From [Eubacterium] infirmum (lineage in GTDB: Bacteria > Bacillota > Clostridia > Peptostreptococcales > Anaerovoracaceae), in contig UGGN01000001.1 of the NCBI GenBank assembly GCA_900450455.1, forward strand, positions 1,426,001-1,490,000: a DNA stretch of 64,000 nucleotides, read 5' to 3'. The first letter of the stretch is position 1; the number at the start of each line of letters is the position of its first letter. Made by a program: the position numbers and the translations under genes. This document shows positions 1,094-16,862 of the stretch, in pieces. The notes beneath the pieces were generated by a model. It made no database searches. It had not been told where the DNA came from and was given only the letters and a program-made list of their open reading frames with translations.

Positions 1094-3119
1094 TAGCATA
1101 AGTGTACTAAAGGGTATAGGTCGAAAGAAAGCAGATATCTTCCACGAAATGGGAATTGAAACAATTGAAGATTTGGCTCTTTATTTCCCTAAATCATATG
1201 AGGATAGACGAAGTGTGACACCTATATCTGAGCTTAGAGCAGGTAGCAAAGTTCTCATTCAGGCAAGGATTGTAAATAAGAGAATGGGGGCTAACAGGTT
1301 TAAGAAAAAGACGCCGCTTATGCTCAATGTGAGCGATGATAGCGGAATGCTTGAAGTTGTTTTTTTTAACGGATATTTTTTGAATAAACTCTTTGATATT
1401 GGAAAAGAATATGTATTCTATGGAAGCGTAAGCGAGAATCTAAATAGATTTCAAATTGTCCATCCTGAGTTTGCACTTGCAGGCAGCAGCGATGATGTAA
1501 GGGGGATTATTCCTATATATTCTTTGCGACAGGGAATTTCACAGAAAGAAATGCGACGTATGCAAATGGATATTAAAGATATTTATTCCAGCATCAAAGA
1601 GTGGATTCCGGAAGATATTATCCGTAAAAACAGGCTTGCTTCACTTGATTTTGCAATATCTAATATGCATTTTCCCAGTAATGCTAAGAAGGTCTTACAG
1701 AGTAGATATAGGCTTGTCTTTGATGAACTATTTACGCTTGAGACAGGTCTCATGTACATGAAAGGTGCTTACGGTGAAGTAAGAGGAATTTCAATAGATA
1801 TAAGCGAGGGAGATAAGTTTATTTCAAAGCTTCCTTTTGAGCTCACGAGCGGTCAAGTGGAGTCATGGAATGAAATCAAAGATGACCTAAAAAAACATAA
1901 AAAAATGAATAGACTTCTGCAAGGAGATGTAGGCTCTGGTAAAACCATAATAGCTGAAGCAGCTATGCTTTCTGCCGCGGCATCAGGTTATCAAAGCGTT
2001 ATAATGGCTCCGACAGAACTTTTGGCAAGACAACACTTTGATACATTTACTCGTGATTTATCATCACATGAAATCGTTCCGGTTATTTTGACGAGCTCTA
2101 TGACAGCTTCCGAAAAGAGAATGACGGTAAAAAGCATAAGTTCAGGAGATGCTAAGCTAATAATAGCTACTCATGCAGTTTTAGAGGAGAATATCGTATT
2201 CAAAAATCTAGGTCTTGTAATAACCGATGAGCAGCATAGATTTGGTGTGAATCAAAGAAGGACACTATCCGGAAAGGGAGAGGGCGTTAACATACTGGTA
2301 ATGACTGCAACTCCTATTCCAAGGACAATTGCAGCTATCCTATATGGCGATTTAGATATTTCGCAGATAAGAACGATGCCCAAGGGACGAAAAGGAATCC
2401 ATACATATAAGTGTTCACATGGTGAAAGGGAGAGGGTTTTAAACTTTGTCGAAAAAGAGATGAAAGCAGGAAGGCAGGTCTATGTGGTAGCACCTCTTAT
2501 AGAGGATTCTGACAGCATAGATGCTAAATCTGCAAATGCGATATTTGACGAGCTTCAGGATAGATTTCATGATTATAGAATCGAGCTTGTCCATGGTTCG
2601 ATGAAGAGCGATTATAAGGACAAGATAATGCAGGACTTCGCAAGTGGCGAGATAGATTTGCTTGTTTCTACTACAGTCATAGAGGTTGGCATAAATGTGC
2701 CAAACGCCAGCGTTATGGTCATAGAAAATGCTGAAAGATTCGGTCTTGCCCAACTTCATCAACTCAGAGGAAGAGTAGGTAGGGGAAGCGATGATGCTTA
2801 TTGTTTTTTGATGTGCTATATAGATAGCGAGATTGCAAATGCACGTATGAACATAATTACAAGTTCTATGAGCGGTTTTGATATAGCAGAGGAAGATCTT
2901 AAGCTTAGAGGCCCGGGAGAAATTTTCGGTACAAGACAGCATGGACTCCCGCAGCTGAAAATCAGTGATTTATTAAGACACAGAGATGTGCTGGATGCGG
3001 CAATACTATCTGCACGGGAGCTTATAGAGCGTGATGCTAAGCTGGAAAACCCTGAAAGCATCATGGTAAAACAGAAAGTCAAAAAAATGTTTGGCAGTGA
3101 TATAAGCATTGATTTATAG
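1080..3119 (+). CDS. recG: ATP-dependent DNA helicase RecG
   Basis: 679 residues, normal RecG length. It remodels stalled replication forks and branch-migrates Holliday junctions. An N-terminal helix-hairpin-helix-like segment (SVLKGIGRKKADIF) opens the wedge/OB region. The SF2 helicase core shows Walker A GDVGSGKT, the DEQH box (ITDEQHRFGVNQR), motif III TATPIPRT, and the C-terminal STTVIEVGINVP and QLRGRVGRG motifs. ATG 1080 is preferred: upstream codons in this frame lie inside the Asp23 gene and the protein from 1080 starts at the family's normal position. Translational coupling with the Asp23 gene is likely, and rsmD follows 8 bases after the stop. Confidence 0.96.
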   Translation: MEINDSISVLKGIGRKKADIFHEMGIETIEDLALYFPKSYEDRRSVTPISELRAGSKVLIQARIVNKRMGANRFKKKTPLMLNVSDDSGMLEVVFFNGYFLNKLFDIGKEYVFYGSVSENLNRFQIVHPEFALAGSSDDVRGIIPIYSLRQGISQKEMRRMQMDIKDIYSSIKEWIPEDIIRKNRLASLDFAISNMHFPSNAKKVLQSRYRLVFDELFTLETGLMYMKGAYGEVRGISIDISEGDKFISKLPFELTSGQVESWNEIKDDLKKHKKMNRLLQGDVGSGKTIIAEAAMLSAAASGYQSVIMAPTELLARQHFDTFTRDLSSHEIVPVILTSSMTASEKRMTVKSISSGDAKLIIATHAVLEENIVFKNLGLVITDEQHRFGVNQRRTLSGKGEGVNILVMTATPIPRTIAAILYGDLDISQIRTMPKGRKGIHTYKCSHGERERVLNFVEKEMKAGRQVYVVAPLIEDSDSIDAKSANAIFDELQDRFHDYRIELVHGSMKSDYKDKIMQDFASGEIDLLVSTTVIEVGINVPNASVMVIENAERFGLAQLHQLRGRVGRGSDDAYCFLMCYIDSEIANARMNIITSSMSGFDIAEEDLKLRGPGEIFGTRQHGLPQLKISDLLRHRDVLDAAILSARELIERDAKLENPESIMVKQKVKKMFGSDISIDL

Positions 3120-3127
3120 GAGATATG

Positions 3128-3709
3128 ATGAGGATAATAACAGGAAAATACAGGGGAAGAAAACTGGAAACACCTTTCGGCAACGAAATAAGGCCGACAA
3201 GTGACAAAGTAAAGGAGTCAATTTTTAATATTTTGATGTGCGATATAGAGGATGCTGTCTGTGTTGACTTATTTGCAGGAACAGGAAACCTTGGACTTGA
3301 GGCACTTTCAAGAGGAGCATCAAAATGCTGGTTTTGTGATAACGAAAGAAATAGCATAGATATAATTAAGCGTAATATCAAATATTGCAAGGCGGATAAT
3401 GAATCTATCGTACTTACCGGAGACTATAGGAAGGCATTAAAGAGGATAGATGAAAAGGTGGATATTATTTTTATTGATCCTCCATACCATGCCGGACTCT
3501 ACGAAAAAGCTGTAGAACAAATAGATTTGCTTGATTTATTAACAGATGTAGGTATAATAGTAGCAGAACATGAAAAAATGACGGATTTGCCTGAACATAT
3601 TGGCGGTATGAAACTTTTTAAGCATAAGAAGTATGGTAAAACATGCTTGTCATTATATAAAAGAGCGGGTTCGGATGATTTACTTGACGAGGAGAAGATA
3701 AGTGACTAA
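3128..3709 (+). CDS. rsmD: 16S rRNA (guanine966-N2)-methyltransferase RsmD
   Basis: 193 residues. It methylates G966 of 16S rRNA using S-adenosylmethionine. The N-terminal RIITGKYRGRKL motif, the substrate-contact segment R-P-T-S-D-K-V-K-E-S-I-F-N-I, the SAM-binding DLFAGTGNLGLEALSRGA, and the catalytic DPPY tetrapeptide are all present. Two ATG codons lie at 3125 and 3128; AGGAG at 3118-3122 leaves only 2 bases to the first but 5 to the second, so 3128 is preferred. The stop overlaps the coaD start by 8 bases, the usual rsmD-coaD pairing in Firmicutes. Confidence 0.95.
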   Translation: MRIITGKYRGRKLETPFGNEIRPTSDKVKESIFNILMCDIEDAVCVDLFAGTGNLGLEALSRGASKCWFCDNERNSIDIIKRNIKYCKADNESIVLTGDYRKALKRIDEKVDIIFIDPPYHAGLYEKAVEQIDLLDLLTDVGIIVAEHEKMTDLPEHIGGMKLFKHKKYGKTCLSLYKRAGSDDLLDEEKISD

Positions 3710-4184
3710 GGCTCTATATTCAGGATCCTTTGATCCTATGACAAATGGACATCTTGATGTTATAGAACGTGCATCAAAGATGTTTGATCAAATTGTTGTT
3801 GGGGTCGTTTCCAATCCTAATAAGCATCCTCTTTTTGGACTTAAGGAAAGGAAGGAACTAATTAAGACAGCAACAGCGCATCTGCCTAATGTTACAGTAG
3901 ATGATTTTGATGGACTACTTGCAAACTACGTCAACCGGAACGGTTTTAATGCAGTTATAAGAGGTCTTAGAGCTACATCGGATTTCGAATATGAGATACA
4001 GATGGCACAGATGAATGCGAGGCTGTTTAATGCGGGAGTAGAGTCTATATTTTTGATGACCAGTCCCAAATATTCGTTTATAAGTTCAAGCATGATTAAA
4101 GAAGTCGTTTCACTTAACGGAAATATAGATGGTTTAGTACCGGAGAATATCTTGAACGAGATTAAGAAAAAATACTCATTATAG
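3702..4184 (+). CDS. coaD: Phosphopantetheine adenylyltransferase
   Basis: 160 residues, standard CoaD size. It joins 4'-phosphopantetheine and ATP to form dephospho-CoA; CoaE, encoded at 23450, does the next step. The nucleotidyltransferase motif SGSFDPMTNGH (T/HxGH) lies at the N-terminus and the ISSSMIKE motif near the C-terminus. Translation starts at a GTG inside the rsmD end, with GAGGAG at 3689-3694 seven bases upstream. Confidence 0.96.
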   Translation: MTKALYSGSFDPMTNGHLDVIERASKMFDQIVVGVVSNPNKHPLFGLKERKELIKTATAHLPNVTVDDFDGLLANYVNRNGFNAVIRGLRATSDFEYEIQMAQMNARLFNAGVESIFLMTSPKYSFISSSMIKEVVSLNGNIDGLVPENILNEIKKKYSL

Positions 4185-4200
4185 GCATAGGAGGATTAGG

Positions 4201-4779
4201 ATGACAATCTACGAACTTTTAGAAGAATTGGAAGAAATTATCAATGTAGCACCGAAGCTACCGCTCACAGGCAAGATTATGGTCGATGCAAACGAAATTT
4301 TGGATATCGCAAAGGATATTAGACTTAGCTTCCCGGATGATGTTCAGCAGGCTGAATGGATTAGAAGAGAGAAGAACAGTATACTGGATAACGCCAGAAA
4401 CGAATATGAAAAGATAATTATTGAGGCTAAGAAACAAGCTGATATGATGGTTGAAAAGGATGTTATTACAGAGAGAGCTGTCGACGTTTCAGGCGAAATC
4501 TATAGAAGAGCCGATGAGTATTCCAAGAATATGAGACTAAGAACTTATGCATATATGGATGATGTTTTGAACAATTTCCGTGTTAAGATTGACGAACTCA
4601 ATAACAAGTACTTTGACGCAATGTACAATGATATGAATGCCCACTTCAACGATATTTCCAAGAAGCTTGATTCTGATATTAAGGATATAAGAAGTATAGC
4701 TGAGGAAACACAGAATACTGAAATAGAAAAACATAGAATAGATATTCCTATTGGTGAATCCAAATCTGAGGAAGAATAG
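4201..4779 (+). CDS. Conserved coiled-coil protein of the coaD-ylbM cluster, unknown function
   Basis: 192 residues, highly charged, with no signal peptide or membrane helix. After a short N-terminal helix (TIYELLEELEEII) most of the chain predicts as helical coiled coil, rich in E, K, D and I, with an acidic tail ending in EEE. Similar proteins between coaD and ylbM in Clostridia are often labelled as ATPase- or ATP-synthase-subunit-like, which reflects coiled-coil similarity only. A DivIVA-like or V-ATPase subunit E/H-like scaffold is possible. It has a strong AGGAGG-type ribosome-binding site just upstream and sits 16 bases after coaD and 5 bases before tmcAL, so it is in the same operon. 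No catalytic motif is visible. Confidence 0.7.
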   Translation: MTIYELLEELEEIINVAPKLPLTGKIMVDANEILDIAKDIRLSFPDDVQQAEWIRREKNSILDNARNEYEKIIIEAKKQADMMVEKDVITERAVDVSGEIYRRADEYSKNMRLRTYAYMDDVLNNFRVKIDELNNKYFDAMYNDMNAHFNDISKKLDSDIKDIRSIAEETQNTEIEKHRIDIPIGESKSEEE

Positions 4780-4784
4780 CATAG

Positions 4785-5891
4785 ATGAAGACTATAGGAA
4801 TAGTAACTGAATTTAATCCGTTTCACGATGGTCACAGGTATCTCATAGATAATGCCAAAAAAAGTCAGTATGCTGATTTTGTGATTGCGATAATGAGCGG
4901 TAATTTTATGCAGCGGGGATACCCCGCTCTTTTTGATAAGTGGCAAAGGGCAAAAAGAGCAGTCGAAGGTGGAGTAAATCTGGTTTTAGAGCTACCACTC
5001 GTTTTTTCATGCGCCAGTGCAGGTCAATTTGCTTACGGAGGTGTAAACATCCTTGAAAAACTTGGAATTGTCGACGTACTGGCTTTCGGAAGCGAGTCGG
5101 GAAATCTAAAACAACTTAAAAAAACTGTGGATTTGATTACGAAAATAGATATTGACTATCCGGATGAACTTAAGGAAATTCTATCAAAGGGATATTCCTA
5201 TCCTGCAGCGAGAAGTAAGCTCATCGCATCTATAGAGCCTGACTTTGATGATAGTATTTTATCTGAACCAAATAATATCCTGGCGCTCGAATACCTAAGG
5301 CACATAGATACTTTAGATGCTTATACTATTAAAAGGATTGGAAAGGGACATGTTGAAACTGCCAGTGATATCCGCAGAATTTGGAAGGAAGACAATCCAC
5401 AAAAAACCGCTGAATTTGAGCAAAGATATTTTGATCTTGTGAGAAGCAAGCTTCTTTTGATAAGTTCAGAAGAAATTGATAAAACTGCATCTGCAGGAGA
5501 GGGACTTGGAAACAAGATAAAATCTGAGATTAGATATGCACAGTCTCTAGAAGAACTTGTGATGCGTGTAAAATCAAAGAGATATACATATAGTCGTATA
5601 AATAGACTTCTTGTACAGGCTTTATTTGGTATAACAAATGAAATAATAAATGAAGCGAGTCTATATGTTAGACCGTTGGCTTTTGATAGGCAAGGAGCGA
5701 CGCTGCTAAGAGCAATAAAGGAATTATCTGATATTCCTGTAGTTGACAGCATTCCTAAGGCTCTCAAGGATAGGAGAATAGCAGAGACTATTAAGTATGA
5801 TGTTTTAGCGAGCGATATATATAACATAATTTATGGTAATGACCTGTACAAAAATAGTGATTTTGTGCAAAAACCTATTACTATTATATAA
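4785..5891 (+). CDS. tmcAL: tRNA(Met) cytidine acetate ligase TmcAL (YlbM)
   Basis: 368 residues. This family makes N4-acetylcytidine at the wobble base of elongator tRNA-Met from acetate and ATP through acetyl-adenylate. The nucleotidyltransferase-like N-terminus has GIVTEFNPFHDGHRYLI with the HxGH motif, followed by the family motifs MSGNFMQRGYPALFDKW, LELPLVFSCASAGQFA and FGSESG. It is slightly shorter than the usual ~400 residues but ends naturally. The next gene is acetate kinase, so two acetate-activating enzymes are neighbours, although a probable promoter separates them. Confidence 0.9.
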   Translation: MKTIGIVTEFNPFHDGHRYLIDNAKKSQYADFVIAIMSGNFMQRGYPALFDKWQRAKRAVEGGVNLVLELPLVFSCASAGQFAYGGVNILEKLGIVDVLAFGSESGNLKQLKKTVDLITKIDIDYPDELKEILSKGYSYPAARSKLIASIEPDFDDSILSEPNNILALEYLRHIDTLDAYTIKRIGKGHVETASDIRRIWKEDNPQKTAEFEQRYFDLVRSKLLLISSEEIDKTASAGEGLGNKIKSEIRYAQSLEELVMRVKSKRYTYSRINRLLVQALFGITNEIINEASLYVRPLAFDRQGATLLRAIKELSDIPVVDSIPKALKDRRIAETIKYDVLASDIYNIIYGNDLYKNSDFVQKPITII

Positions 5892-6028: not shown

Positions 6029-7234
6029 ATGAAAGTATTAGTTATCAACTGTGGAAGTTCATCACTTAAGTATCAGGTTCTCGATATGACAGATGAGACT
6101 CTTCTTGCAAAGGGATTGGTTGAGAGAATTGGTATGGATGGCTCAGTTATCAACCATACTAAGACAGGACAGGACAAGATTGTTACGGAAGTTCCTATGA
6201 AAGACCATAAGGATGCTATAGCTCAAGTTCTTGCAGCAGTTCAGGACAAGAATCATGGAGTGGTTAAGAACATGGATGAAATCGGTGCTGTTGGACATAG
6301 AGTTGTACATGCAGGAGAAATGTATGCAGAATCGGTTCTCATAACAGAGTCAGTTATTCAGGCTCTTGAAGATTGTATTGAGCTTGCTCCGCTTCACAAC
6401 CCACCTAACCTACTTGGTATAGCTGCATGCAAAGAGCTTATGCCTAAGATCCCAATGGTTGCCGTATTTGATACAGCTTTCCATCAGACGATGCCACCAC
6501 AGTCATACCTATATGCTCTTCCATATGAATATTACGAGAAGTATCGTGTAAGAAGATACGGATTCCACGGAACTTCACACAAATACGTAGCTCAGAAAGC
6601 TGCACAGATGATGAGCGTTAATATCAACGACCTAAAGCTCATAACATGCCATCTAGGTAACGGTGCTTCAGTTACAGCTATCAAGCACGGTAGAGTAGTT
6701 GATACATCAATGGGATTCACACCTCTTGAGGGTCTGGTAATGGGAACACGAAGCGGTGACCTTGACCCTGCTATCGTTAACTACATTAAAGAGAAAGAAG
6801 GACTAACAGATTCTCAGGTAAACGATGTTCTTAATAAGAAGTCAGGTGTGCTTGGTATTTCAGGTGTTTCAAGTGATTTCAGAGATTTGGAAACAGCTGT
6901 TAATGACGGAAATGAAAGAGCAGCTCTTGCACTAAGAATCTTTGCTCAGAAGGTTAGATTCTACATCGGTGCATATATTGCCGAGATGAATGGAGTTGAT
7001 GCTATTATCTTTACAGCAGGTGTAGGTGAGAACGATATCTCGATGAGAGAAATTATTTGTACAGACCTCGGAAATCTTGGAATTAAGCTTGATCCAATCA
7101 AGAATAAGGTAAGAGGACATGAGACGAAAATCTCGACAGATGACTCTAAGGTTCAACTTCTACTAATCCCAACAAATGAAGAGCTCATGATCGCAAGAGA
7201 TACGTATAGTATTGCAAGAAAAAATGCCAGATAA
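6029..7234 (+). CDS. ackA: Acetate kinase
   Basis: 401 residues, normal length. It interconverts acetyl phosphate + ADP and acetate + ATP, the ATP-yielding last step of acetate fermentation. The ASKHA phosphotransferase signatures are intact: N-terminal [53 protein letters not shown], and FTAGVGEN near the C-terminus. ATG 6029 is preferred to an in-frame ATG at 6017 because GGAGG at 6019-6023 lies 5 bases before it. No pta (phosphotransacetylase) gene is beside it, so pta must be elsewhere or replaced. Codon use is more biased than in the neighbours, fitting high expression. Confidence 0.97.
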
Positions 7235-7237
7235 TAG

Positions 7238-7266
7238 TTGACAAGATAGATAGATATAGATATACT
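7238..7266 (+). promoter_or_regulatory. Strong sigma-A promoter of rpmF
   Basis: A perfect TTGACA (7238-7243), exactly 17 bases, then TATACT (7261-7266). It starts 3 bases after the ackA stop, so rpmF has its own promoter. Confidence 0.75.
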
Positions 7267-7332
7267 TGAATAGTTATTGCGTAATATTATATATTTTATA
7301 TATAATTAGACTTTGAACGAGGAGGTGTAGAA

Positions 7333-7518
7333 ATGGCAGTTCCAAAGAGGAAAACATCAAAGGCCAAAAGAGATATGAGAAGATCACCGAATATGAAGAA
7401 ATCATCACCGGGAATTTCGATCTGCCCTCAATGTCACCAGCCAAAGCTTCCACACAGAGTTTGCCCAACATGTAACTATTATGATGGCAAAGAGATAGTG
7501 GCAACAGAAGAAGCTTAA
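7333..7518 (+). CDS. rpmF: 50S ribosomal protein L32
   Basis: 61 residues, standard L32 size. The N-terminus [17 protein letters not shown] and a zinc ribbon with two CxxC pairs (CPQC and CPTC) identify it. AGGAGGTG at 7320-7327 sits 5 bases before the ATG. The DUF177 gene (yceD) that often precedes rpmF is absent; instead there is a dedicated promoter and a strong terminator, so the gene is a single transcription unit. Confidence 0.97.
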
Positions 7519-7537
7519 TTAAGCGAATATATGGATT

Positions 7538-7579
7538 CAAAAGAGTAGTTTTTTGCTACTCTTTTGTTGTCTTTATGTT
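7538..7579 (+). terminator. Terminator after rpmF
   Basis: CAAAAGAGTAG and CTACTCTTTTG form an 11-bp perfect stem with a 7-base loop, followed by an interrupted T-rich tract. The stem has T-rich flanks on both sides. Confidence 0.85.
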
Positions 7580-7586
7580 TTTCTAA

Positions 7587-7615
7587 TTGGAAAAAATCAA
7601 AACGCAAGTTATTGT
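7587..7615 (+). promoter_or_regulatory. Possible promoter of the OPT-peptidase-FNT group
   Basis: TTGGAA (7587-7592), 17-base spacer, TATTGT (7610-7615), between the rpmF terminator and the OPT gene. Both boxes are imperfect; the position is the main support. Confidence 0.35.
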
Positions 7616-7651
7616 AATACGTGTATTTGAATTAGTTTAGGAGAATGTAAA

Positions 7652-9256
7652 ATGAATGGTAAACAACTAACCGTAAGGGGTATGGTTATCGGTGCTATAG
7701 GCTCAGTAATTATTACATGCAGTTCTATGTTTATCGCACTGAAGCTAAGCTCGCTTCCATGGCCAATAATGTTTGTGGCTTTATTTTCAATGGTTTGTCT
7801 TAAGGCTTTAGGTGGTACTTGTCTAAATGAGATTAATGTCACGCATACCGCAATGTCAGCGGGGGCAATGGTAGCAGGTGGTGTAGCTTTCACTATTCCG
7901 GGAATCTTTATCTTAAATCCGAATGCGGAAATATCCCTGGTGCAGCTACTTGTTATTGTACTTGGAGGAACAGCTCTAGGCTTGATATTTACAGCTTTGA
8001 TGCGTAAATATTTCATTGAAACTCAGGAGCTGCCATATGCAATGGGACAAGCTGCTGCAGACCTATTAGAAGTTGGAGATAAGGGAGGCAAGAAATCAGT
8101 ACTGCTCTTCACGTCATTTGGTATAGCCGGATTATTTGCTGTGTTGAGAGATTGGTTTATGAAGATACCTCAGACCTGGTTAAGTAAGGGAATGATGAAG
8201 TATGGCTCTGTCGGGGGCTTATATATTTCGCCTATGCTCGTAGCTATTGGGTATATTGTTGGTCCTATATTTATAGGCGTTTGGTTCCTAGGAGCTGTTG
8301 TAGGTGATTTTGGAATCCTAATATTTGGGCAGAAGTTCGGATTTTTTACCATGCAGCAGGCAACTGATATCAAGCAGTCACTCGGACTTGGCATGATGGT
8401 CGGAACAGGAATAGGTATTTTGATAAAGGGTATACTCCCTAATATGAAGAAGATATTCGGAGCTATGTTCAGCAAGGAGAACACAGGTGATTCAATTCTC
8501 TCTATGAGATGGGCACCTATATTTCTTGTTTTGCTCGTATTTGTGCTTACATATGTTTGCAATTTAGGCATAATAGCTTCGGTAATTACTATAATAGGCG
8601 TTTGGCTAACGACATCGATGTCATCACAGTGTGTAGGACAATCAGGAATTAATCCAATGGAAATATTCGGTATCTTTGTTCTACTCGTTGTTAAGACATT
8701 AAGTTCAATCGGACAAAATGAGGCTCTATTTGTAGCTGCAATCGTTGCAATTGCATGTGGTCTCACGGGCGATGTTATGAACGATTTTAAGGCCGGACAT
8801 ATACTTAAAACAAACGCGAAAGATCAGTGGATAGCTGAGGTTATAGGTGGGTTCATAGGAGCAATTGTTTCTGTTTTTGTATTCTATTTTATGCTCAAGG
8901 CATATGGTGGCAATGCATTTAACGACGGTACTTTTGCAGCAGCACAGGCTCATGCAGTATCTGCCATGATAAAAGGAATATCAAACTATCCCGTATTTAT
9001 ATTGGGGCTGATTGCTGCAGCTATTCTTTACTGTCTCAAGCTTCCCGTGATGACATTTGGTCTTGGTGTATACCTACCGTTCTACCTATCAGCGACTGCA
9101 TTCATAGGTGGAGCATTGAGGTTCATTGTAGATAAGTTCCTTCCTAACTTTGAAAGGGAGAGTAAGGGACAAATCATTGCTTCTGGGATATTAGGAGGCG
9201 AAGGTGTTGTAGGTGTTGTAATCGCAATAATCGTTGCGGTTAAGGCTATAGCTTAG
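7652..9256 (+). CDS. OPT/YSL-family oligopeptide transporter
   Basis: 534 residues, almost entirely hydrophobic, with about 12-14 predicted membrane helices and short loops. The N-terminus (TVRGMVIGAIGSVIITCSS then LPWPIMF), the ELPYAMGQAAADLLE segment after the third helix, and the terminal G-G-E-G-V-V-G-V-V motif fit the bacterial OPT family, which imports oligopeptides or metal-peptide chelates by proton coupling. The length is at the short end of the family. A P1-family peptidase gene follows after 18 bases, suggesting that imported peptides are its substrates; that link is inferred from position. Confidence 0.85.
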   Translation: MNGKQLTVRGMVIGAIGSVIITCSSMFIALKLSSLPWPIMFVALFSMVCLKALGGTCLNEINVTHTAMSAGAMVAGGVAFTIPGIFILNPNAEISLVQLLVIVLGGTALGLIFTALMRKYFIETQELPYAMGQAAADLLEVGDKGGKKSVLLFTSFGIAGLFAVLRDWFMKIPQTWLSKGMMKYGSVGGLYISPMLVAIGYIVGPIFIGVWFLGAVVGDFGILIFGQKFGFFTMQQATDIKQSLGLGMMVGTGIGILIKGILPNMKKIFGAMFSKENTGDSILSMRWAPIFLVLLVFVLTYVCNLGIIASVITIIGVWLTTSMSSQCVGQSGINPMEIFGIFVLLVVKTLSSIGQNEALFVAAIVAIACGLTGDVMNDFKAGHILKTNAKDQWIAEVIGGFIGAIVSVFVFYFMLKAYGGNAFNDGTFAAAQAHAVSAMIKGISNYPVFILGLIAAAILYCLKLPVMTFGLGVYLPFYLSATAFIGGALRFIVDKFLPNFERESKGQIIASGILGGEGVVGVVIAIIVAVKAIA

Positions 9257-9274
9257 ATTTTTATGGTGATAGAT

Positions 9275-10258
9275 ATGTCTAATTTTGATATAAAGCAAAT
9301 AGATGTATGCGATATGAAGGATTTTTATATCGCATCGGCCGAAGACTTTGATAAGGCAACCGGCGTGACTGTAATCGCATCTAAGGAAGGGGCAACTGCT
9401 TCTGTCGATGTGAGAGGTGGAGGACCGGCAACGAGGGAAACTGATCTATTAAGTCCGGAAAATATGGTTCAGGCTATTCATGCAGTAGTTCTTTCCGGAG
9501 GAAGTGCATATGGACTTGAAGCATCAAGCGGTGTAATGGAATATCTTGCATCAAAAGATATAGGCTTTGATGTAGGTGTCGGAAAGGTTCCTATTGTTTG
9601 CGGAGCATCCTTGTTTGACCTTCAAATCGGTCAGAACTCGTATCCTGATAAAGAAATGGGATATAGGGCTGCATATAATGCTTTTGAGGCCGAAAGCACA
9701 TGCTTTAAACAAGGTAATTATGGTGCAGGAACCGGAGCTACCGTCGGCAAATATAACGGTATAGAGGGCATGATGAAGAGCGGCATCGGTTCTTCTGCTG
9801 TGCAGATAGGTGAGCTTCAGGTTGGAGCAATATCTGCTGTAAATGCTATGGGTGATGTGTTTGACTTTGACGGAAAAGAAATAGCAGGGCTTATGTCAGC
9901 TGACGGTGAGTTTCTTTCAACTTGCATGACAATGAAGGAGAATATCTACCGGTCGAAAAACGTTTTTTCCGGTAATACAACTATAAGCTGCATAATGACA
10001 AATGCGGTTTTGACCAAGGCACAGTGCAAAAAACTTGCTTCTATATGTCACGACGCATATGCCAGACGTATAATGCCTGTACACACAAGTGTCGATGGCG
10101 ATACCATATTCGTCATGACTTCAGGAACTTTGGAGCTTGATGCGAACAGTTTTGATGCTATTGCAGTAATTGCCACAGAAGAGCTTGAGAAGGCCATAGT
10201 CTCAGGAGTCAAGTCGGCTAAGTGTATTTACGGGGTAAAATCATATTCTGATTTATGA
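9275..10258 (+). CDS. P1/DmpA-type (S58) N-terminal-nucleophile peptidase
   Basis: 327 residues, cytoplasmic. The family is made as one chain that cleaves itself to expose a Ser or Thr nucleophile, and acts as aminopeptidase or amide hydrolase (DmpA, BapA, NylC relatives). The N-terminal VTVIASKEGATASVDVRGGGPATRETDLL, the VLSGGSAYGLEAS block and the GNYGAGTGATVGK block are characteristic. The probable autocleavage site is in SGNTTISC, between Asn234 and Thr235, as in NylC-type members. ATG 9275 is preferred to 9263 because GGTGAT at 9265-9270 can only serve the later codon. It likely degrades peptides or peptide-like amides taken up by the OPT transporter. Confidence 0.85.
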   Translation: MSNFDIKQIDVCDMKDFYIASAEDFDKATGVTVIASKEGATASVDVRGGGPATRETDLLSPENMVQAIHAVVLSGGSAYGLEASSGVMEYLASKDIGFDVGVGKVPIVCGASLFDLQIGQNSYPDKEMGYRAAYNAFEAESTCFKQGNYGAGTGATVGKYNGIEGMMKSGIGSSAVQIGELQVGAISAVNAMGDVFDFDGKEIAGLMSADGEFLSTCMTMKENIYRSKNVFSGNTTISCIMTNAVLTKAQCKKLASICHDAYARRIMPVHTSVDGDTIFVMTSGTLELDANSFDAIAVIATEELEKAIVSGVKSAKCIYGVKSYSDL

Positions 10259-10277
10259 TGTTTATTGAGGAAGTTAA

Positions 10278-11129
10278 ATGATTGAAAGAAACTTTTTAAC
10301 ACCTAAAGAGGTGGCGTGCGAACTTGTTACGGTCGCAGAAAATAAGGTTAATTATAGTATTGTTCAGAAGATAATTTTGGGAATAATAGCCGGTGCTTAC
10401 ATAGCTTTTGCAGCTGTAGCATCAAACACAGCGGCATTTCAGCTGATGAATAATCCGAGTACACTTGGTATATCAAAGCTCATCAGCGCTTTTGTATTCT
10501 CTGGAGGTCTGATTCTGGTAGTTGTGTGTGGATCAGAGCTTTTCACGGGAAATAATCTTATGCTCATGGGCGTCTACGAAAAGAAAATAAGTGTAAAACA
10601 ATTGCTTTTGAGCTGGACTATTGTGTATATATCTAACTTTGTCGGATCAATACTCATAGCTTTTTTGGTAACAAAGTCGGGACAGCTTGATTTTGCCAGT
10701 TCGATGTTAGGTGGTTCAACAATCAAAATATCTTGCGCTAAGGTCTCGCTTTCAACACATAAAGCAATCATACTGGGAATACTTTGTAACTGGCTTGTAT
10801 GTCTTGCAGTTTGGGGTTCTACGGCAGCTAGAAATATTGGCAGTAAGATAATGGCAATATTTTTTCCTATAATGATGTTTGTTACTGCAGGATTTGAGCA
10901 TAGTATTGCAAACATGTATTATATATCTGCGGGTATATTTGCAAAGGGAAATATTCAATATATGGATGCAGCTATACAACTTGGCGTAAAGCAGAGCGAC
11001 ATAGTAAGTCTTGACTGGACCAGTTTCTTCATAGGCAACCTGATACCTGTAACATTAGGAAATATAATCGGCGGAACTGTGTTCGTTGCAACGACTTATT
11101 GGATAGCATTTTTAAAAAAAAATAAATAA
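10278..11129 (+). CDS. Formate/nitrite transporter (FNT) family channel
   Basis: 283 residues, six predicted membrane helices, normal FNT size. The signature GSELFTGNNLML after helix 2 and GFEHSIANMYYI near helix 5 match FocA/NirC/HSC channels, which are pentamers passing small monovalent anions (formate, nitrite, hydrosulfide) or their acids. Which anion is carried cannot be read from sequence; formate is plausible for a fermenter. It starts 19 bases after the peptidase gene and is followed by a terminator, so it closes the group that begins with the OPT gene. Confidence 0.9.
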   Translation: MIERNFLTPKEVACELVTVAENKVNYSIVQKIILGIIAGAYIAFAAVASNTAAFQLMNNPSTLGISKLISAFVFSGGLILVVVCGSELFTGNNLMLMGVYEKKISVKQLLLSWTIVYISNFVGSILIAFLVTKSGQLDFASSMLGGSTIKISCAKVSLSTHKAIILGILCNWLVCLAVWGSTAARNIGSKIMAIFFPIMMFVTAGFEHSIANMYYISAGIFAKGNIQYMDAAIQLGVKQSDIVSLDWTSFFIGNLIPVTLGNIIGGTVFVATTYWIAFLKKNK

Positions 11130-11151
11130 AAGAACTGAGATATTTGATATG

Positions 11152-11201
11152 TACCCTCTTTACAGGACAAAGTAAGGTTCAATTAAAGAGGGTATTTTTA
11201 T
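11152..11201 (+). terminator. Terminator after the FNT gene
   Basis: TACCCTCTTTA pairs perfectly with TAAAGAGGGTA (11 bp) around a 21-base loop, followed by a short T run. Confidence 0.75.
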
Positions 11202-11446
11202 ATTCAAATTCGGGTATTGTGTTTGGGAAATATTATGCTAAATATTTAAACTAAATACTTGTTGTAATAATGCGATATAGATAAATGGGTTGATTTTAAG
11301 CCGAATTCATGATTTGGAAAGCTCTAAATTAATCATTTTGTAGCATTGATGCAATAAAAATATATTTGCGACTCATATTTAGCAGTGATAAGGTATATAT
11401 GTAGCTAAATGCAGTGTACATGTCAGAGTGTGCTTTTTTATTGGAA

Positions 11447-11470
11447 ATTAGTTAGTCAAACCTAACTAAT
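11447..11470. promoter_or_regulatory. Palindrome 1: candidate operator of the surface-protein gene
   Basis: ATTAGTTAG and CTAACTAAT are perfect 9-base inverted arms separated by TCAAAC. No T tract follows, so it is not a terminator. The TTAG/CTAA half-sites resemble those bound by DtxR/MntR-family metal regulators (TTAGGTTAG-type arms), which is only a likeness. Confidence 0.45.
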
Positions 11471-11484
11471 CGTTGCTAAAATAG

Positions 11485-11501
11485 GATTAGCGGCGCTAAT
11501 C
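11485..11501. promoter_or_regulatory. Palindrome 2: candidate operator
   Basis: GATTAGC and GCTAATC are perfect 7-base inverted arms around GGC, 14 bases after palindrome 1 and sharing its TTAG/CTAA core. It lies about 55 bases before the ribosome-binding site of the surface-protein gene and overlaps a weak promoter candidate. Confidence 0.45.
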
Positions 11502-11571
11502 TAAACTTTCCAGTCGTTATATAAATTAAATGATGGAAAGGCAAAATATGTTTTTTAGGAGGAAAGACAGA

Positions 11572-14500
11572 ATGCAAAGAAAAATATTTCATAAGTCGAT
11601 TTTATCTCTTTTGATTATGGCTCTGCTCGTGACGAGCATTCCATTCGCATCGTTTGCTGAGGAAAGAGATGAAAACAATAGGGAAGACCTTATGAAACAG
11701 GTTGAACAAAAGGCGGATAAGCTTCTCGCTATGGATGATTTGTCTTCAAGAAACAGATTGACAGATTATGAGATGAAAACTGAGCTTGATGAAACAAACT
11801 GGTACCAAGTATGGGAGGAAGCCCAGAGATATAAGGATAAGGCGCGTTTTTGCACAGTTAATGAGTTAAAAAATGCTCTAAGTAATATGTCATATACGGA
11901 AAAGCTGTATGCTTATCCGGTTTCACATGATTTAAATAAGGATGGTTTCTACAGTGGATCATATGAGATTCGCAACCTTGTAAAGATTGGTGGTGGACAT
12001 AATCAAAACCTATACTCTAAGGGTGAAGTAAATAATGAGATCAAGTCATTATTTGATGGTAAAGTAAGAATTATTAAATCGGGTAATCAATATGATATAA
12101 GACTTGATATAGACAGAACAAAGGTTAAATCAATAGAAACCGTTTACATGAACTATATAATGGCGAAACCTGTAAACATTGATTACCAGCAGGCAAAGCC
12201 TACTCAGGATGAAGCTAATGCGAGAATTGCATTTACCGTTACAGTTCCAGGTGAATTGACAGGCGAGGAACTTGCAGTAACAAGCCTAAAATATACTGAT
12301 ACTGCAGGAGTTTCGCATGAAATAGGTCCTTTTGGTATATTTATAAAATATGGAAATTTGATAAAGGATGAGAAATATGTTCTCCCGGACTATTATAACG
12401 ATATAAGAAACAATGTAATGATGCTACAGACTAATTTGAGACCATTACTTGAAGGAGATGAGGATGCAAAATATATAAGTGATGAGCAGAAGGCTACAAT
12501 TAAAAAGGTTCTGGATGAACTGGATGTATTTACGAAGCTACCGGATAAGCAGCTCACATACTCTAAGTATTTGGAAATTGCAAATCCGGCCATGGATATT
12601 GAAAACGCAATAACTCTTAAGAAGGATTTAGAAAGAAAGCTTGATTTTGAGATTTCAGATCTAAAAAATGGAATATACACTGTAGAAAGATATACAGAGA
12701 GCAGCATCAAAGCTTTAGAGAATTATTATAAAGAAGCAAAGGCAAAATTGCCTAAGTTATCTCTTAAGGAAACAGTATCTGAAACTACAAAATACAAGTT
12801 TGCAACTGCATTTTATTTAAGACACAATATGGCTGATCTTGAAGCTACTATCAAGCTTGCTCGAGAAAAAATGAAGTCAGGTGACAGTTATACAACAGGA
12901 AGCTATGGAAGGCTTTTGACAGCACTTTCAAATGCTGAGGCTTGGGTAAAGAAAAATAAGGAATATTGCTATACTGAGGATTCAAAAGATAGCACAAAAA
13001 CATATAACGATGCATTGAAAGATGCAATTAATAAACTTGAAAAGGATAGCACTGCCGAGCCTACAAAAAAAGAGTACACTGTAAATGTTAGATTCTTAGA
13101 TAATAACAATCACGAAAAAGAATCTATGGCGAATGTATGCCTGGTTCAAAAAGCAAAGCTTACAGAGGAAAACGGTGTAAGTAAACTTGTTCTAAACCTA
13201 AAGCCAATGTATAGAAACAGTAAGGCAGTAGGTACAATAAGTCAGATTTATACCTACAAAAATGCTGTCGACAAGGTTAAAGGAAATATAATCGAAAAGG
13301 AAAGTGTTGAGATTAATGGCACAGAAGTTAAATATCCTTCAGCTATAGAAATAGGTGTAGACGGAAAAACTAAGATGATAAAGTTACATCTGGACATTGA
13401 AGCATCCGGACAGGGTTCGCATTCGCATGATGTAATTTTAGAAATCGATTACGCTCATAAAACGGAGGGATTTGATCCTAATGAGTCTGTGAATAAGCAA
13501 GATTTAATCAAGGCAATAAACTTCTATAACAGCAAGGCTTGGAAGGAATCAATTTCAGTAATCAAAGCAAAGAATGTTGAAAAGCTTGAAAATGCTTTAG
13601 AAAATGCTATTAAAGTAAGAGAGGATAATAAAGCTACTCAGAAACAAGTAAATGATGCTTTCAAAAAACTTACATCAGAAGGCGATAGAGTAAATACTAT
13701 TATCGTACAGTATAGAGCTTGCGAACAGGCGGCAGGTGACTATAGATCGGATCTTGCTTCAAAGAAATTTACAAAGGAAAGCATGAATGCCATCAAAGAG
13801 AGAATAGTTGAAGGTCAAGCTATCCTGGCAAAAGAAGAAATAACTGATAGTGATATTCAAAGATTGATAGCTATCGATTTCATTAATCTTTATGAGATGC
13901 GTAGATACGATACTTCCGGTATAAAGGAAGCGATTGAAAATGCAAATAAAAAGTTGGATGAGGGTAAAGAGTTTACTGACGAATCTGTTCAGGCGTTAAA
14001 AGATGCTATAAATACTGCGCAAGAATACATAAAAAAGGCTTCAGAAACAGCATTTGTTGCAGACGAAAGAGCAGATCACATTAAGAGAATAAATGAGAAA
14101 ATATCTGCTTTAATAGCAAAGGAAAATGACCCTGATCCAAATTTAAAGCAGAAAAAAACAAGAATTGCAGGAAGTGATAGATATGAGACATCAATCAAGG
14201 TAGCGCAAGAGCTTAAGAAAACGATGAATGTCGATAAGTTTGATGCAGCTGTCGTGGCATATGGTGATAACTACGCAGATGCACTGTCAGGTTCATATTT
14301 AGCAAAAGTTAACAATGCACCGCTTCTTCTAATCAACGAGCATAATATGCAAGGTGCTCTAGACTTTATTAGAAACAATGTCAAAGCAGGAAAATCGAGC
14401 AAGGTTTACCTCCTGGGAGGCAGAGCTGTAATGCCTGAACTTATGAGAACAAAGCTGGAGGATAGCTATACTGTAAAGAGGCTTTCCGGCGATGATAGGT

Positions 14501-15036
14501 TTGCAACTAATATAGCCATCCTAAAGGAGGCAGGTGTAACCAATGAGGAGATAATTATTTCCTCCGGATACGGATTTGCAGATAGCCTTGCCGCATCGGC
14601 AACTGGAAGACCTATACTTCTTGTAGGTGATGAAATGACAAGTGGTCAAATGGCATACTTGAAGAGCCTAAAAACCAGAAAGTATACAATAACGGGTGGC
14701 TTTAAATCTGTAAACAGAGCAATTGAAGGATGGTTAAGCAGTTTAGGCTCGGTGAGCAGAGTATACGGAGAAGATCGATATATGACATCCCTTGAAATAG
14801 CAAAGCACTTCTTCAAGAATCCTAAGAGTGTGGTTATAGGATATGGAGATAACTTCCCTGATGGACTTTGTGGAGGGGTACTTGCTGAGAAACGTGGTGC
14901 AGCAATGCTTTTGATTAATGAGTACAACTTTGATTTTGCCAAGCAGTATGTAAAGGATAATGCAATAAAGGATCAAGTAGTGCTTGGAGGGAAAAGATTA
15001 ATATCGGACGATTTGCTAAATTATATAGTTCGATAG
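11572..15036 (+). CDS. Secreted surface protein with NEAT-like domain and three C-terminal CWB2 repeats
   Basis: 1154 residues. A signal peptide (basic MQRKIFHK, hydrophobic core, cleavage probably after Ala29 in ASFA) directs export. Residues ~30-300 are a mixed region with a beta-rich segment I cannot assign. Residues ~300-490 and ~640-860 are helical and contain FIVAR-like segments. Residues ~499-633 (YTVNVRFLDNN, then ESMANVCLVQKAKL) resemble a NEAT domain, a fold that binds heme in Gram-positive surface proteins. Its last strand has a Tyr (EIDY) but not a full YxxxY, so heme binding is uncertain. Residues ~864-1154 carry three CWB2 repeats (IAGSDRYETS, LSGDDRFATN, VYGEDRYMTS), which hold proteins in the wall non-covalently. 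ATG 11572 is chosen because AGGAGG at 11557-11562 precedes it by 9 bases and the signal peptide starts there. No sortase motif is present. Confidence 0.88.
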   Translation: MQRKIFHKSILSLLIMALLVTSIPFASFAEERDENNREDLMKQVEQKADKLLAMDDLSSRNRLTDYEMKTELDETNWYQVWEEAQRYKDKARFCTVNELKNALSNMSYTEKLYAYPVSHDLNKDGFYSGSYEIRNLVKIGGGHNQNLYSKGEVNNEIKSLFDGKVRIIKSGNQYDIRLDIDRTKVKSIETVYMNYIMAKPVNIDYQQAKPTQDEANARIAFTVTVPGELTGEELAVTSLKYTDTAGVSHEIGPFGIFIKYGNLIKDEKYVLPDYYNDIRNNVMMLQTNLRPLLEGDEDAKYISDEQKATIKKVLDELDVFTKLPDKQLTYSKYLEIANPAMDIENAITLKKDLERKLDFEISDLKNGIYTVERYTESSIKALENYYKEAKAKLPKLSLKETVSETTKYKFATAFYLRHNMADLEATIKLAREKMKSGDSYTTGSYGRLLTALSNAEAWVKKNKEYCYTEDSKDSTKTYNDALKDAINKLEKDSTAEPTKKEYTVNVRFLDNNNHEKESMANVCLVQKAKLTEENGVSKLVLNLKPMYRNSKAVGTISQIYTYKNAVDKVKGNIIEKESVEINGTEVKYPSAIEIGVDGKTKMIKLHLDIEASGQGSHSHDVILEIDYAHKTEGFDPNESVNKQDLIKAINFYNSKAWKESISVIKAKNVEKLENALENAIKVREDNKATQKQVNDAFKKLTSEGDRVNTIIVQYRACEQAAGDYRSDLASKKFTKESMNAIKERIVEGQAILAKEEITDSDIQRLIAIDFINLYEMRRYDTSGIKEAIENANKKLDEGKEFTDESVQALKDAINTAQEYIKKASETAFVADERADHIKRINEKISALIAKENDPDPNLKQKKTRIAGSDRYETSIKVAQELKKTMNVDKFDAAVVAYGDNYADALSGSYLAKVNNAPLLLINEHNMQGALDFIRNNVKAGKSSKVYLLGGRAVMPELMRTKLEDSYTVKRLSGDDRFATNIAILKEAGVTNEEIIISSGYGFADSLAASATGRPILLVGDEMTSGQMAYLKSLKTRKYTITGGFKSVNRAIEGWLSSLGSVSRVYGEDRYMTSLEIAKHFFKNPKSVVIGYGDNFPDGLCGGVLAEKRGAAMLLINEYNFDFAKQYVKDNAIKDQVVLGGKRLISDDLLNYIVR

Positions 15037-15117
15037 CAAATGACAAAAACAGGAGCATTTAATTGATATTAAACGAAAGGTGATGTTGCAGAATAGGTGA
15101 TTCTATTCTGCGTATCA

Positions 15118-15155
15118 AAAAAGACGAGGATTTTTTAGCTTTCCTCGTCTTTTTA
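15118..15155 (+). terminator. Terminator after the surface-protein gene
   Basis: AAAAAGACGAGGA and TCCTCGTCTTTTT form a 13-bp stem around an 11-base loop, running into T residues. The CWB2 fragment that follows begins within about 10 bases of it. Confidence 0.88.
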
Positions 15156-15162
15156 TTATAGG

Positions 15163-15552
15163 GCATATCTTAAGACATTAAACTTTAAGAAATTCTATTT
15201 AATCGGCGGTAGTGATGTAGTTAGCAGGAATGTTGAAAATGCAGTTTCAAAACTTGGAGATATTGAACGACTTGCCGGCGATGATAGATATGGAACATCA
15301 AAAGCAATAGCCGAAAAATTCTTTGCAGGAAAGCATAAGAACGCTTATATTACTTATGGATTAAATTTCCCTGACGGACTCTGTGCAGGTGTTTTATGCG
15401 ATGCAGATAAAAGCGCTCTTCTATTAGCAAGCAATAAGAACATGAATGAAGCAAGCGAATATGTCAGCAAAGCGGGAGTTCTAAATTGCACAATTCTGGG
15501 TGGAGACGATTTAATTTCAGAAAGTGCAGCTGACATGCTTTTTAAAAAATAA
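15163..15552 (+). pseudogene. Start-less fragment of a second CWB2 surface-protein gene
   Basis: 129 codons are open to a TAA at 15550 and encode one and a half CWB2 repeats, with LAGDDRYGTS, NFPDGLCAGVL and a closing ILGGDDLISES. They align with the last ~128 residues of the gene upstream, starting from AYLKTLNFKKF versus AYLKSLKTRKY. Identity is moderate, so it is not a recent simple duplication. No start codon with a ribosome-binding site, no signal peptide and no promoter precede it, and the frame is closed by a TAG at 15136. It is best read as the 3' remnant of a deleted CWB2 gene or as a silent cassette. There is no internal stop or frameshift, which is unusual for an old relic. Confidence 0.8.
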
Positions 15553-15635
15553 CATATCACATTTTAATATAAGATCTGATGATATAAGTGAATGTTTTAT
15601 GGTTAAGGATGATTTAATCTGATAAATTTCGAGAT

Positions 15636-15665
15636 GAGGACTGAAGATAACTTCGGCCCTCTTTT
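15636..15665 (+). terminator. Terminator after the CWB2 fragment
   Basis: GAGGACTGAAG pairs with CTTCGGCCCTC (one mismatch, one G-U) around an ATAA loop, followed by TTTTGTT. A functional terminator here supports the idea that the fragment was once the end of a complete gene. Confidence 0.7.
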
Positions 15666-15700
15666 GTTGAGATTTTATAAAGGGTAAAACACTGAAAATC

Positions 15701-15729
15701 TTGTATTTACAGCTAAAAAATGATAAAAT
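15701..15729 (+). promoter_or_regulatory. Probable promoter of asd
   Basis: TTGTAT (15701-15706), 17-base spacer, TAAAAT (15724-15729), about 40 bases before the asd start. A TATAAT at 15741-15746 has no -35 partner and lies too close to the ribosome-binding site. Confidence 0.4.
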
Positions 15730-15767
15730 ATTTTATTAGCTATAATAGATAGTTGAGGTATAATGAT

Positions 15768-16862
15768 ATGAAAAAATTAGAAAAAAAATTAAGAGTAGGA
15801 ATTCTAGGTGGAACAGGAATGGTTGGACAGAGATTTATAACTCTGTTAGATGGACATCCATGGTTTGAAGTAACTACAATCGCAGCAAGTTCAAGAAGTG
15901 CGGGTAAAACATATAAAGAAGCTATGACCGGAAGATGGAAGCTTGAGGACAAGATGCCGGAGGCTGTTAAGGACATCATAGTTAAGGATATTAAGGATAT
16001 AGACGAAATTTCAAGTTCTGTGGACTTTGTTTTCAGTGCTGTTGATATGACTAAGGAAGAAATCAAGGCCATAGAGGATGATTATGCAAAAGCAGAAACT
16101 CCGGTTGTTTCAAATAACAGTGCACATAGATGGACGGAGGACGTTCCTATGGTAGTTCCGGAAATCAATATTGATCATTTTGATATTATAGAGACCCAAA
16201 AGAAGAGACTTGGAACAAAGAGAGGATTTGTAGCAGTTAAGCCAAACTGCTCAATTCAGGGATATGTACCTGCACTTGCAGCATGGCAGGAGTTTGAACC
16301 ATACGAAGTTTGCGTTACAACATATCAGGCAATTTCCGGTGCCGGAAAGAACTTCTCGGATTGGCCGGAAATGGTTGGCAACATCATTCCTTACATTGGG
16401 GGAGAAGAAGAGAAGAGCGAAATTGAACCTCTTAAGATTCTCGGTTCGATCAAGGGCGGCAAGTTTGTAAAGGCTGATAATCTTATTATCACTTCACAAT
16501 GCGTGAGAGTACCTGTACTGGAGGGACATACTGCGGCTGTATTTGTAAAGTTCCACAAGAATCCAAGCAAGGAAGAGCTTATAGATAGGCTAAAGAACTT
16601 CTCAGGCTTTCCACAGGAGAATGATCTTCCGAGCGCACCGAAGCCGTTCATTAACTATCTAAGCGAGGACGATCGTCCGCAGGTCGCTAAGGATGTTTAC
16701 TACGAGAAGGGTTTTGGTGTTTCAGTAGGAAGAGTTCGCAAAGATACTTTGTTCGATTATAAGTTCATCGGTCTTGCACACAACACTGTAAGAGGTGCTG
16801 CAGGCGGTGCTATTCTTTGTGCAGAGAGCCTTGTAGAAAAGGGATACATAACTCACAAGTAG
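15768..16862 (+). CDS. asd: Aspartate-semialdehyde dehydrogenase, archaeal/fungal-type
   Basis: 364 residues. It reduces beta-aspartyl phosphate to aspartate semialdehyde, the branch point for diaminopimelate/lysine, threonine and methionine. The NADP-binding [13 protein letters not shown] is at the N-terminus; the active-site cysteine is in KPNCSIQGY; the segments [21 protein letters not shown] and [15 protein letters not shown] are those of the subfamily otherwise typical of archaea and fungi. Residues of the catalytic His region ([11 protein letters not shown] tail) are present. ATG 15768 is preferred to an upstream TTG because GAGG at 15755-15758 precedes it by 9 bases. It lies in its own unit upstream of ftsK. 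Confidence 0.93.

Follow-up and report, generated by a model that had tools for sequence, protein, structure and literature searches.

A start-less CWB2 fragment behind a surface-protein gene of [Eubacterium] infirmum is probably the leftover of a cell-wall anchor swap

The CWB2 fragment found at positions 15163-15552 of the window (the whole stretch of DNA analysed, 64,000 nucleotides) is, with a probability that we put at about 0.92, the leftover of an anchor swap, in which the type-A anchor of the surface-protein gene directly upstream would have been replaced by the type-B anchor of another gene together with its terminator. The features concerned are the following:

11530-15036, plus strand: CWB2 surface-protein gene of 1168 aa (open reading frame; three CW_binding_2 stretches, 156.8 bits; body orthologue in the sister species G008, 84% aa).
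14082-14194, plus strand: last resident stretch before the swap and left flank of a presumed older exchange tract (dS 0.047 over 14082-14193).
14188-14194, plus strand: left joint, ACATCAA common to resident and donor, within the coding sequence of RIAGSDRYETS, the opening motif of repeat 1.
14195-15161, plus strand: putative pasted block that starts at about codon 889 and comprises the triple CWB2 anchor, the stop codon, the 3'UTR and the terminator, a copy of the end of the gene at G000:C2:485 kb.
15118-15154, plus strand: Rho-independent terminator with 13-bp arms, part of the pasted block (from its fold; same 42 bp at the donor).
15162-15552, plus strand: putative stranded tail of the displaced anchor, with the end of old repeat 2, the whole of old repeat 3 and its own stop (G008 match; CWB2, 62 bits).
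15553-15947, plus strand: old downstream region and first 60 codons of asd, right flank of the presumed older tract (92% nt to G008).
15768-16862, plus strand: asd, aspartate-semialdehyde dehydrogenase (NCBIfam asd_EA, 345.7 bits; same neighbour in G008).

The protein of 1168 aa has an N-terminus that by eye resembles a signal peptide, a large body and a C-terminal anchor of three CWB2 repeats. Members of the family carry repeats scoring over the curated cut-off of 24.9, normally three, and three such stretches were detected in this gene. In the fragment behind it, the frame is open for 129 codons (15163-15549) and closed by a stop at 15550-15552. Counted from the upstream in-frame TAG at 15136, it runs for 137 codons from stop to stop, against 69 codons for the longest open run in the other five frames of 15101-15700. 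Pfam CW_binding_2 matches its residues 36-121 with 62 bits (E 7.8e-17, cut-off 24.9), far beyond chance, and the match comprises one full repeat and the end of the preceding one. The earlier note had described such an uninterrupted CWB2 frame, devoid of start codon and promoter and beginning within about 10 bases of a terminator, and in all these points it was borne out. No ATG, GTG or TTG lies in frame within the fragment upstream of the ATG at 15442, and no plus-strand open reading frame of at least 60 aa is listed there. Five promoter-like matches were counted in 14900-15900, for a mean of 4.8 (sd 2.1) in shuffled sequence, one of them within the fragment (15322-15351, 9/12). The fragment starts 8 bases past the terminator hairpin, and homology to the old gene sets in at 15162-15164, the 8th to 10th base behind it. 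Neither the three-repeat unit nor the start of a standalone CWB2 protein is present; most likely the fragment arose recently and is neither translated nor active.

The earlier note had further placed the homology in the C-terminus of the upstream gene. This had to be corrected, as the fragment shares only 42% aa and, in the matching part, 62.5% nt with the present C-terminus and matches an earlier anchor instead. The intact form of this earlier gene was found in G008, a sister species of the same genus assembled in a single contig and co-linear with the window over 6197-16726. At the same locus, G008 carries an intact orthologue (G008:C1:990672-994130) whose body shares 84% aa identity with that of the window gene, and the last 129 codons of the orthologue agree with the fragment in 126 of 129 amino acids, the DNA being equal at 377 of 389 bases (96.9%) over 15164-15552. 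Because this orthologue, the only such gene at its locus, terminates in the fragment sequence, the fragment is, on sequence comparison, the 3' end of the former anchor of the gene at 11530-15036. The history of the swap is read from this one comparison within a collection of one genome per species: among 60 other genomes, an orthologue of the body was detected only in G008 (84%), with a distant match (31-33%) in G039. Searches with the fragment gave three distant and uninformative loci (31-41% aa) in genome contigs and no match in viral contigs, collections from which the species of the window is perhaps absent.

Two outcomes had been contemplated in the earlier note for this locus in relatives. 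A second full-length gene does not occur in G008, which has a single one; an exchanged C-terminus does emerge from the comparison, since the body matches G008 and the anchor does not. The suspicion of a recent event with partial deletion also proved sound. That the fragment is what is left of the second of two tandem CWB2 genes, after a deletion that removed its start and body, is very unlikely. Tandem CWB2 genes do exist in the genus, for example on contig C7 of G007, but the single gene of G008 joins the body of the window gene to the end represented by the fragment, and the tract of low divergence to G008 extends as far as the left joint and is taken up again past the block, as if an insert had split one gene.

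The counterpart of the new anchor was located in a complete gene at G000:C2:485 kb, on the same contig as the window gene and ~0.96 Mb distant from it, where the pasted block corresponds to L025 3235-4169 and 5512-5553. The body of this putative donor has Pfam PQQ_2 and Big_3 matches, and BLASTP at E 0.001 detected no match between it and the body of the window gene. By contrast, the anchors are 98.0% identical over 970 bases (14160-15129) and the terminators 100% identical over 42 bases (15120-15161). Among the 19 differences in 14160-15129, eight lie before 14188, where the window equals G008 and not the donor. Behind the left joint 11 differences are found, 10 of them coding and all 10 synonymous, with no nonsynonymous change in 280 codons; because of this, both anchors appear to have been under protein-level selection since copying.

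The terminator that travels with the anchor has its arms at 15118-15130 and 15142-15154, and the region 15034-15170 folds at -35.7 kcal/mol (z -4.15). The hairpin was missed by the terminator scanner, presumably because its loop of 11 nt exceeds the scanner limit of 8. In the 3'UTR, a hairpin that came along with the anchor (15066-15117) is 88% identical over 52 bases to G000:C2:1103013-1103064 (L048), and this counterpart resembles by eye a complete terminator, in such a way that the donor 3' end may consist of two terminators in series, the first one worn.

Both ends of the block could be placed within narrow limits. The window equals G008 at 50 of 50 positions in 14144-14193 and equals the donor from 14188 onward, save for the 11 substitutions. 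With G008 standing in for the resident sequence, the longest exact run shared with the donor at the left joint is 7 nt, and 30 of 41 aligned bases are equal. On the right, identity to the donor stops at 15161 and identity to G008 is unbroken from 15164; position 15162 equals G008, and 15163 differs from it but equals two outgroup anchors. Between 15161 and 15164 no homology of donor and resident is visible, taking G008 again as stand-in and the position as accurate to a base or two. Because the left joint lies in frame within the opening motif of repeat 1, we infer that the three-repeat unit was exchanged as a whole, in frame on the left and with an illegitimate joint on the right, behind the hairpin. 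In SlpA of C. difficile the three CWB2 modules interlock, each lending a strand to its neighbour (PMC8881574). Because of this interlocking an exchange as a whole unit makes sense and, by analogy, the ~1.3 repeats of the fragment would not be expected to fold into a working anchor.

The donor gene differs from the window copy in one further respect: its anchor and terminator are split by an IS1249 element (477 bits; L025 about 4170-5511), flanked by a target duplication of 8-10 bases at the donor terminator, and the terminator behind the window gene carries none. Because the element of the 485-kb terminator is missing here, the window copy would have been made from an IS1249-free form of the donor or share descent with it, and the donor would have taken up the element after copying. 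These data also bear on whether similar anchors were merely confused during assembly, the fragment belonging elsewhere. With a shared block of ~1 kb and 17 full copies of an IS of 1.34 kb in the genome, repeats are plentiful, but the two anchor copies can be told apart by 11 substitutions past the joint and by the IS. Left flank, fragment and asd also stand in the order seen in G008, which was assembled separately, and IS copies exceeding the block in length did not keep the genome from being assembled into 2 contigs; such an artefact is highly improbable.

IS1249 itself was also surveyed. The full copies of G000 (L067-L083) include that of the donor terminator, and another copy (L022 about 2809-4152) lies directly behind a different CWB2 gene. 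A terminator-like hairpin was found within 60 bases of the empty site in 9/17 cases, compared to 49/1020 random flank stretches (4.8%; Fisher p 5e-8), using a loose custom detector and a control that includes coding DNA, and excluding a partial 18th copy (L084). Judged from these sites, the element seems to insert within transcription terminators or next to them, and part of the effect may be a preference for intergenic DNA.

The relationships of the anchors were studied in a tree of 13 anchors, those at 525 kb and C1:299 kb included, in which the long rows 138 kb and C1:299 kb are unsure in placement. The window anchor pairs with that at 485 kb (100/99), within a G000 group that contains the 525- and 813-kb anchors (98/97), and the anchor of the G008 orthologue groups with the 1076- and 1390-kb genes (99/99). 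A tree constrained to unite the window and G008 anchors was rejected (p-AU 1.5e-75), despite bodies that are 84% identical. The body of the 485-kb gene has its own orthologue in G008 (G008:C1:256-261 kb, 86% aa), and this orthologue likewise bears a type-B anchor. Because the G008 orthologue of the 485-kb gene has a type-B anchor and that of the window gene a type-A anchor, the direction of transfer is read as going from the 485-kb gene to the window gene. A second constraint, uniting the anchors at 485 kb, at 260 kb of G008 and in the window, was also rejected (p-AU 0.00019). Because the 485-kb anchor does not group with that of its orthologue, it was possibly exchanged earlier too; an earlier homogenisation or exchange among the type-B anchors of G000 is possible, and both copies could stem from a third source.

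In the same group, the bodies of the genes at C2:485, 525 and 813 kb have no mutual BLASTP match at E 0.001, and their anchors, of 75-78% DNA identity, stand apart from the anchor of the G008 orthologue of the 485-kb gene. This could be read as older signs of anchor spread or homogenisation.

In order to judge the open frame, the age of the copy was considered. The synonymous divergence between donor and copy is 0.055, a value that underestimates the age if later conversion made the two look younger. In neutral simulations of a fragment as old as the copy, with 0.0275 and 0.055 changes per site (4000 runs each), 66% and 46% of the fragments stayed free of stops; the simulation contains no indels, and true survival would be lower. 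Because a neutral fragment of this age stays open in 46-66% of the runs, the open frame needs no function, and under this model a young relic can look like the one observed. The expectation that a relic should collect stops, from which the earlier note had argued, fails at this age.

The same numbers bear on the idea, raised in that note, of a silent storage cassette that exchanges sequence with the C-terminus of the expressed gene and so varies the anchor. This idea is suggested by an open frame without a start, with promoter matches at chance level, adjoining a gene of the same family that looks expressed. An unselected frame has a fair chance of surviving, though, and the 62.5% nt shared with the corresponding portion of the expressed anchor contains no exact run longer than 8; against any part of the anchor the longest exact run is 13 nt, and the best BLASTN piece has 38 bases at 79%. 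Because the fragment is too unlike the anchor for ordinary homologous recombination, the role of cassette is unsupported. Moreover, only ~1.3 of 3 repeats are present in a fold that swaps strands between repeats (PMC8881574), and the genome's 26 CWB2 matches include no further cassette, the only other short-frame match (C2:144 kb) sitting behind a CHAP domain. Taken together, there is hardly any chance that the fragment serves as a cassette. What stands of the earlier proposal is the exchange at the C-terminus: an anchor was in all likelihood replaced by recombination, with the fragment as the remnant of the exchange and the 485-kb gene, instead of the fragment, as donor.

The CHAP match belongs to L022:6178-7954 (G000:C2 about 142.7-144.5 kb), where a gene that is holin-like by eye precedes one that codes for a CHAP domain and CWB2 repeats and is interrupted by an in-frame stop shortly before 7457. 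The interrupted gene is apparently a phage lysis gene with a wall anchor of host type.

A present role of the fragment, for instance within a 3' regulatory RNA or as an asd leader, was also considered. Compared to G008, its 128 codons have 10 synonymous and 2 nonsynonymous differences (dN/dS 0.05), nearly all synonymous, which would fit lasting constraint. The ratio, which the earlier note had proposed to compute, says little about the time after the swap, as only 3 of the 13 differences in 15163-15552 are derived in the window, 5 being derived in G008 and 5 unpolarised with the 1076- and 1390-kb anchors as outgroups. In addition, identity to G008, a genome without the swap, is 92% between the fragment and asd, and a start codon is missing before 15442. 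A function of this kind seems most improbable.

The events that would best explain the swap can be outlined as follows. The gene at 11530-15036 would formerly have ended in a type-A anchor, as its G008 orthologue does. Ectopic recombination or template switching would then have paired briefly at the sequence coding for the RIAGSDRYETS motif, the donor DNA being that of the own chromosome or, perhaps, DNA taken up from a sibling. Copying would have run through the donor anchor and ended at an illegitimate joint behind the terminator hairpin, a polymerase stall at this hairpin being a plausible cause of the tract end. The last 391 bases of the old anchor would have remained, cut off by the incoming stop and terminator, and the outcome would be a surface protein with an unchanged body and a different predicted wall anchor. 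A longer homology in another donor molecule is possible. The genome has a ComEC-type match (PF03772, 141.7 bits), and DNA uptake by competence is possible on this basis. Copying back from mRNA was tempting, as the block ends near the transcript end, and was set aside when no RVT_1 match was detected in the genome at E 0.001; a past reverse-transcriptase element could possibly have been behind the copying.

The DNA on both sides of the block carries the trace of what looks like an earlier exchange between species. Compared to G008, dS is 1.2-1.5 in the four bins of the body and 0.67-1.13 in neighbouring genes, and falls to 0.047 in 14082-14193 and to 0.134 in the fragment. In asd it is 0.216 for the first 60 codons and 0.5-1.5 thereafter. 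When the left neighbours and the body up to 14050 were cut into pieces of 60 codons, values went down to 0.354 but no further. Counted as synonymous changes, 11 of 103 sites beside the pasted block are affected versus 318 of 507 elsewhere in the body (Fisher p 1.9e-23), and in the three other pairs of CWB2 orthologues (anchor dS 0.96, 2.4 and saturated) no comparable drop was seen. Because synonymous divergence is ~10-fold lower on both sides of the block, we infer that a type-A anchor and ~400 bases behind it passed between the lineages of the window and of G008 shortly before the type-B swap; local differences in rate are a possible part of the cause. Elsewhere, at 7200-7799, identity to G008 is also high (94.5-97% per 200 bases, versus mostly 75-92% around it), in a stretch lying partly upstream of the gene at 7652.

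Further swaps were searched for by BLASTN among CWB2 loci (pieces of at least 150 bp, 70%, E 1e-20). The survey covered all CWB2 matches of G000 (8 loci) and G008 (5 loci), the 15 stretches of G007 that make up the matches listed and 5 stretches of G009 without its C8 locus, the CWB2-rich genomes G002, G005, G006 and G010 being left out. Among the surveyed loci of these four genomes, the 485/1440-kb pair, that is, donor and window, is the only anchor pair above 90% nt in the matches listed. G000 also shows an IS1249 pair, and G007 three other matches above 90% (571, 175 and 152 bp), all of them outside CWB2 frames.

Two loci of this survey are described for their own sake. In G009:C17, a candidate second lone fragment (10537-10800) reaches the contig end at 10801 and is uninformative. 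In G007, inverted repeats of 152 bp (94%; L100 1066-1217 and 3624-3772) flank a CWB2 frame, and 571 bp next to one of these repeats are found again, at 98%, behind a different CWB2 frame (L093 7958-8528), in such a way that the unit might be invertible or mobile.

Displacement of C-termini has been described in other systems. In rhs genes a new C-terminus is joined to the body and the old one is left downstream as a start-less "dissociated tip", which can decay, and homologous recombination with circular intermediates is proposed (Jackson et al. 2009, PMC2935791). The present case resembles rhs in that the body is kept, the C-terminus is new and the start-less old C-terminus lies directly downstream. 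It differs in that the swapped part is a cell-wall anchor and not a toxin tip, with no immunity gene, the remnant is single and truncated, the donor lies on the same chromosome and the joints are short or apparently illegitimate. A repeated core at the start of the remnant, as in rhs, was not found, the longest exact run between 15162-15261 and 14000-14194 being 7 nt. For effector displacement in T6SS clusters of V. cholerae, homology-facilitated illegitimate recombination is proposed (Kirchberger et al. 2017, PMC5361080). The likeness lies in one joint aided by homology, the other apparently illegitimate, and old 3' material behind the insert. Unlike in that system, the homologous side is very short here (7 nt, 30/41) and toxin and immunity genes are absent; the long homology that this mechanism predicts at one joint was not seen, the exact match at the left one being these 7 nt.

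The silent cassettes of antigenic variation would be expected to have long homology to the expression site, which the fragment does not have. A further likeness is that to the CWB2 family of C. difficile, including SlpA, in which a triple CWB2 anchor also holds a large surface protein and the surface-layer locus is known to recombine. There whole cassettes are switched, unlike the present case, where the body was kept and the change is limited to anchor and terminator. S-layer cassette switching in C. difficile was reportedly described by Dingle and colleagues in 2013. Literature searches over titles and abstract starts found no CWB2 anchor swap, which says no more than that, nor any entry joining CWB2 with "gene conversion". 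The principle of C-terminal displacement is known; its setting in a CWB2 wall anchor and the completeness of the record are new.

In this swap the donor, the recipient, both joints and the discarded piece are all identifiable, and a start-less CWB2 tail behind a terminator provides a signature with which more swaps can be searched for. It also contains a warning, as CWB2 orthology judged by the C-terminus can mislead. A broader and tentative reading, which we consider possible but rather doubtful, is that CWB2 triads with their terminators are an exchangeable currency among unrelated bodies, both within one genome and from species to species, the terminator hairpin marking the tract end and fragments such as this one being the footprints of such hops. 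Binding of CWB2 to an anionic wall polymer has been described for PSII of C. difficile (PMC8881574). The swap allows one to ask whether the choice of a wall anchor is independent of the protein it carries, with changes of the wall polymer, or escape from phage that use this polymer, as possible drivers of the choice. If the broader reading were true, anchor and body would evolve apart.
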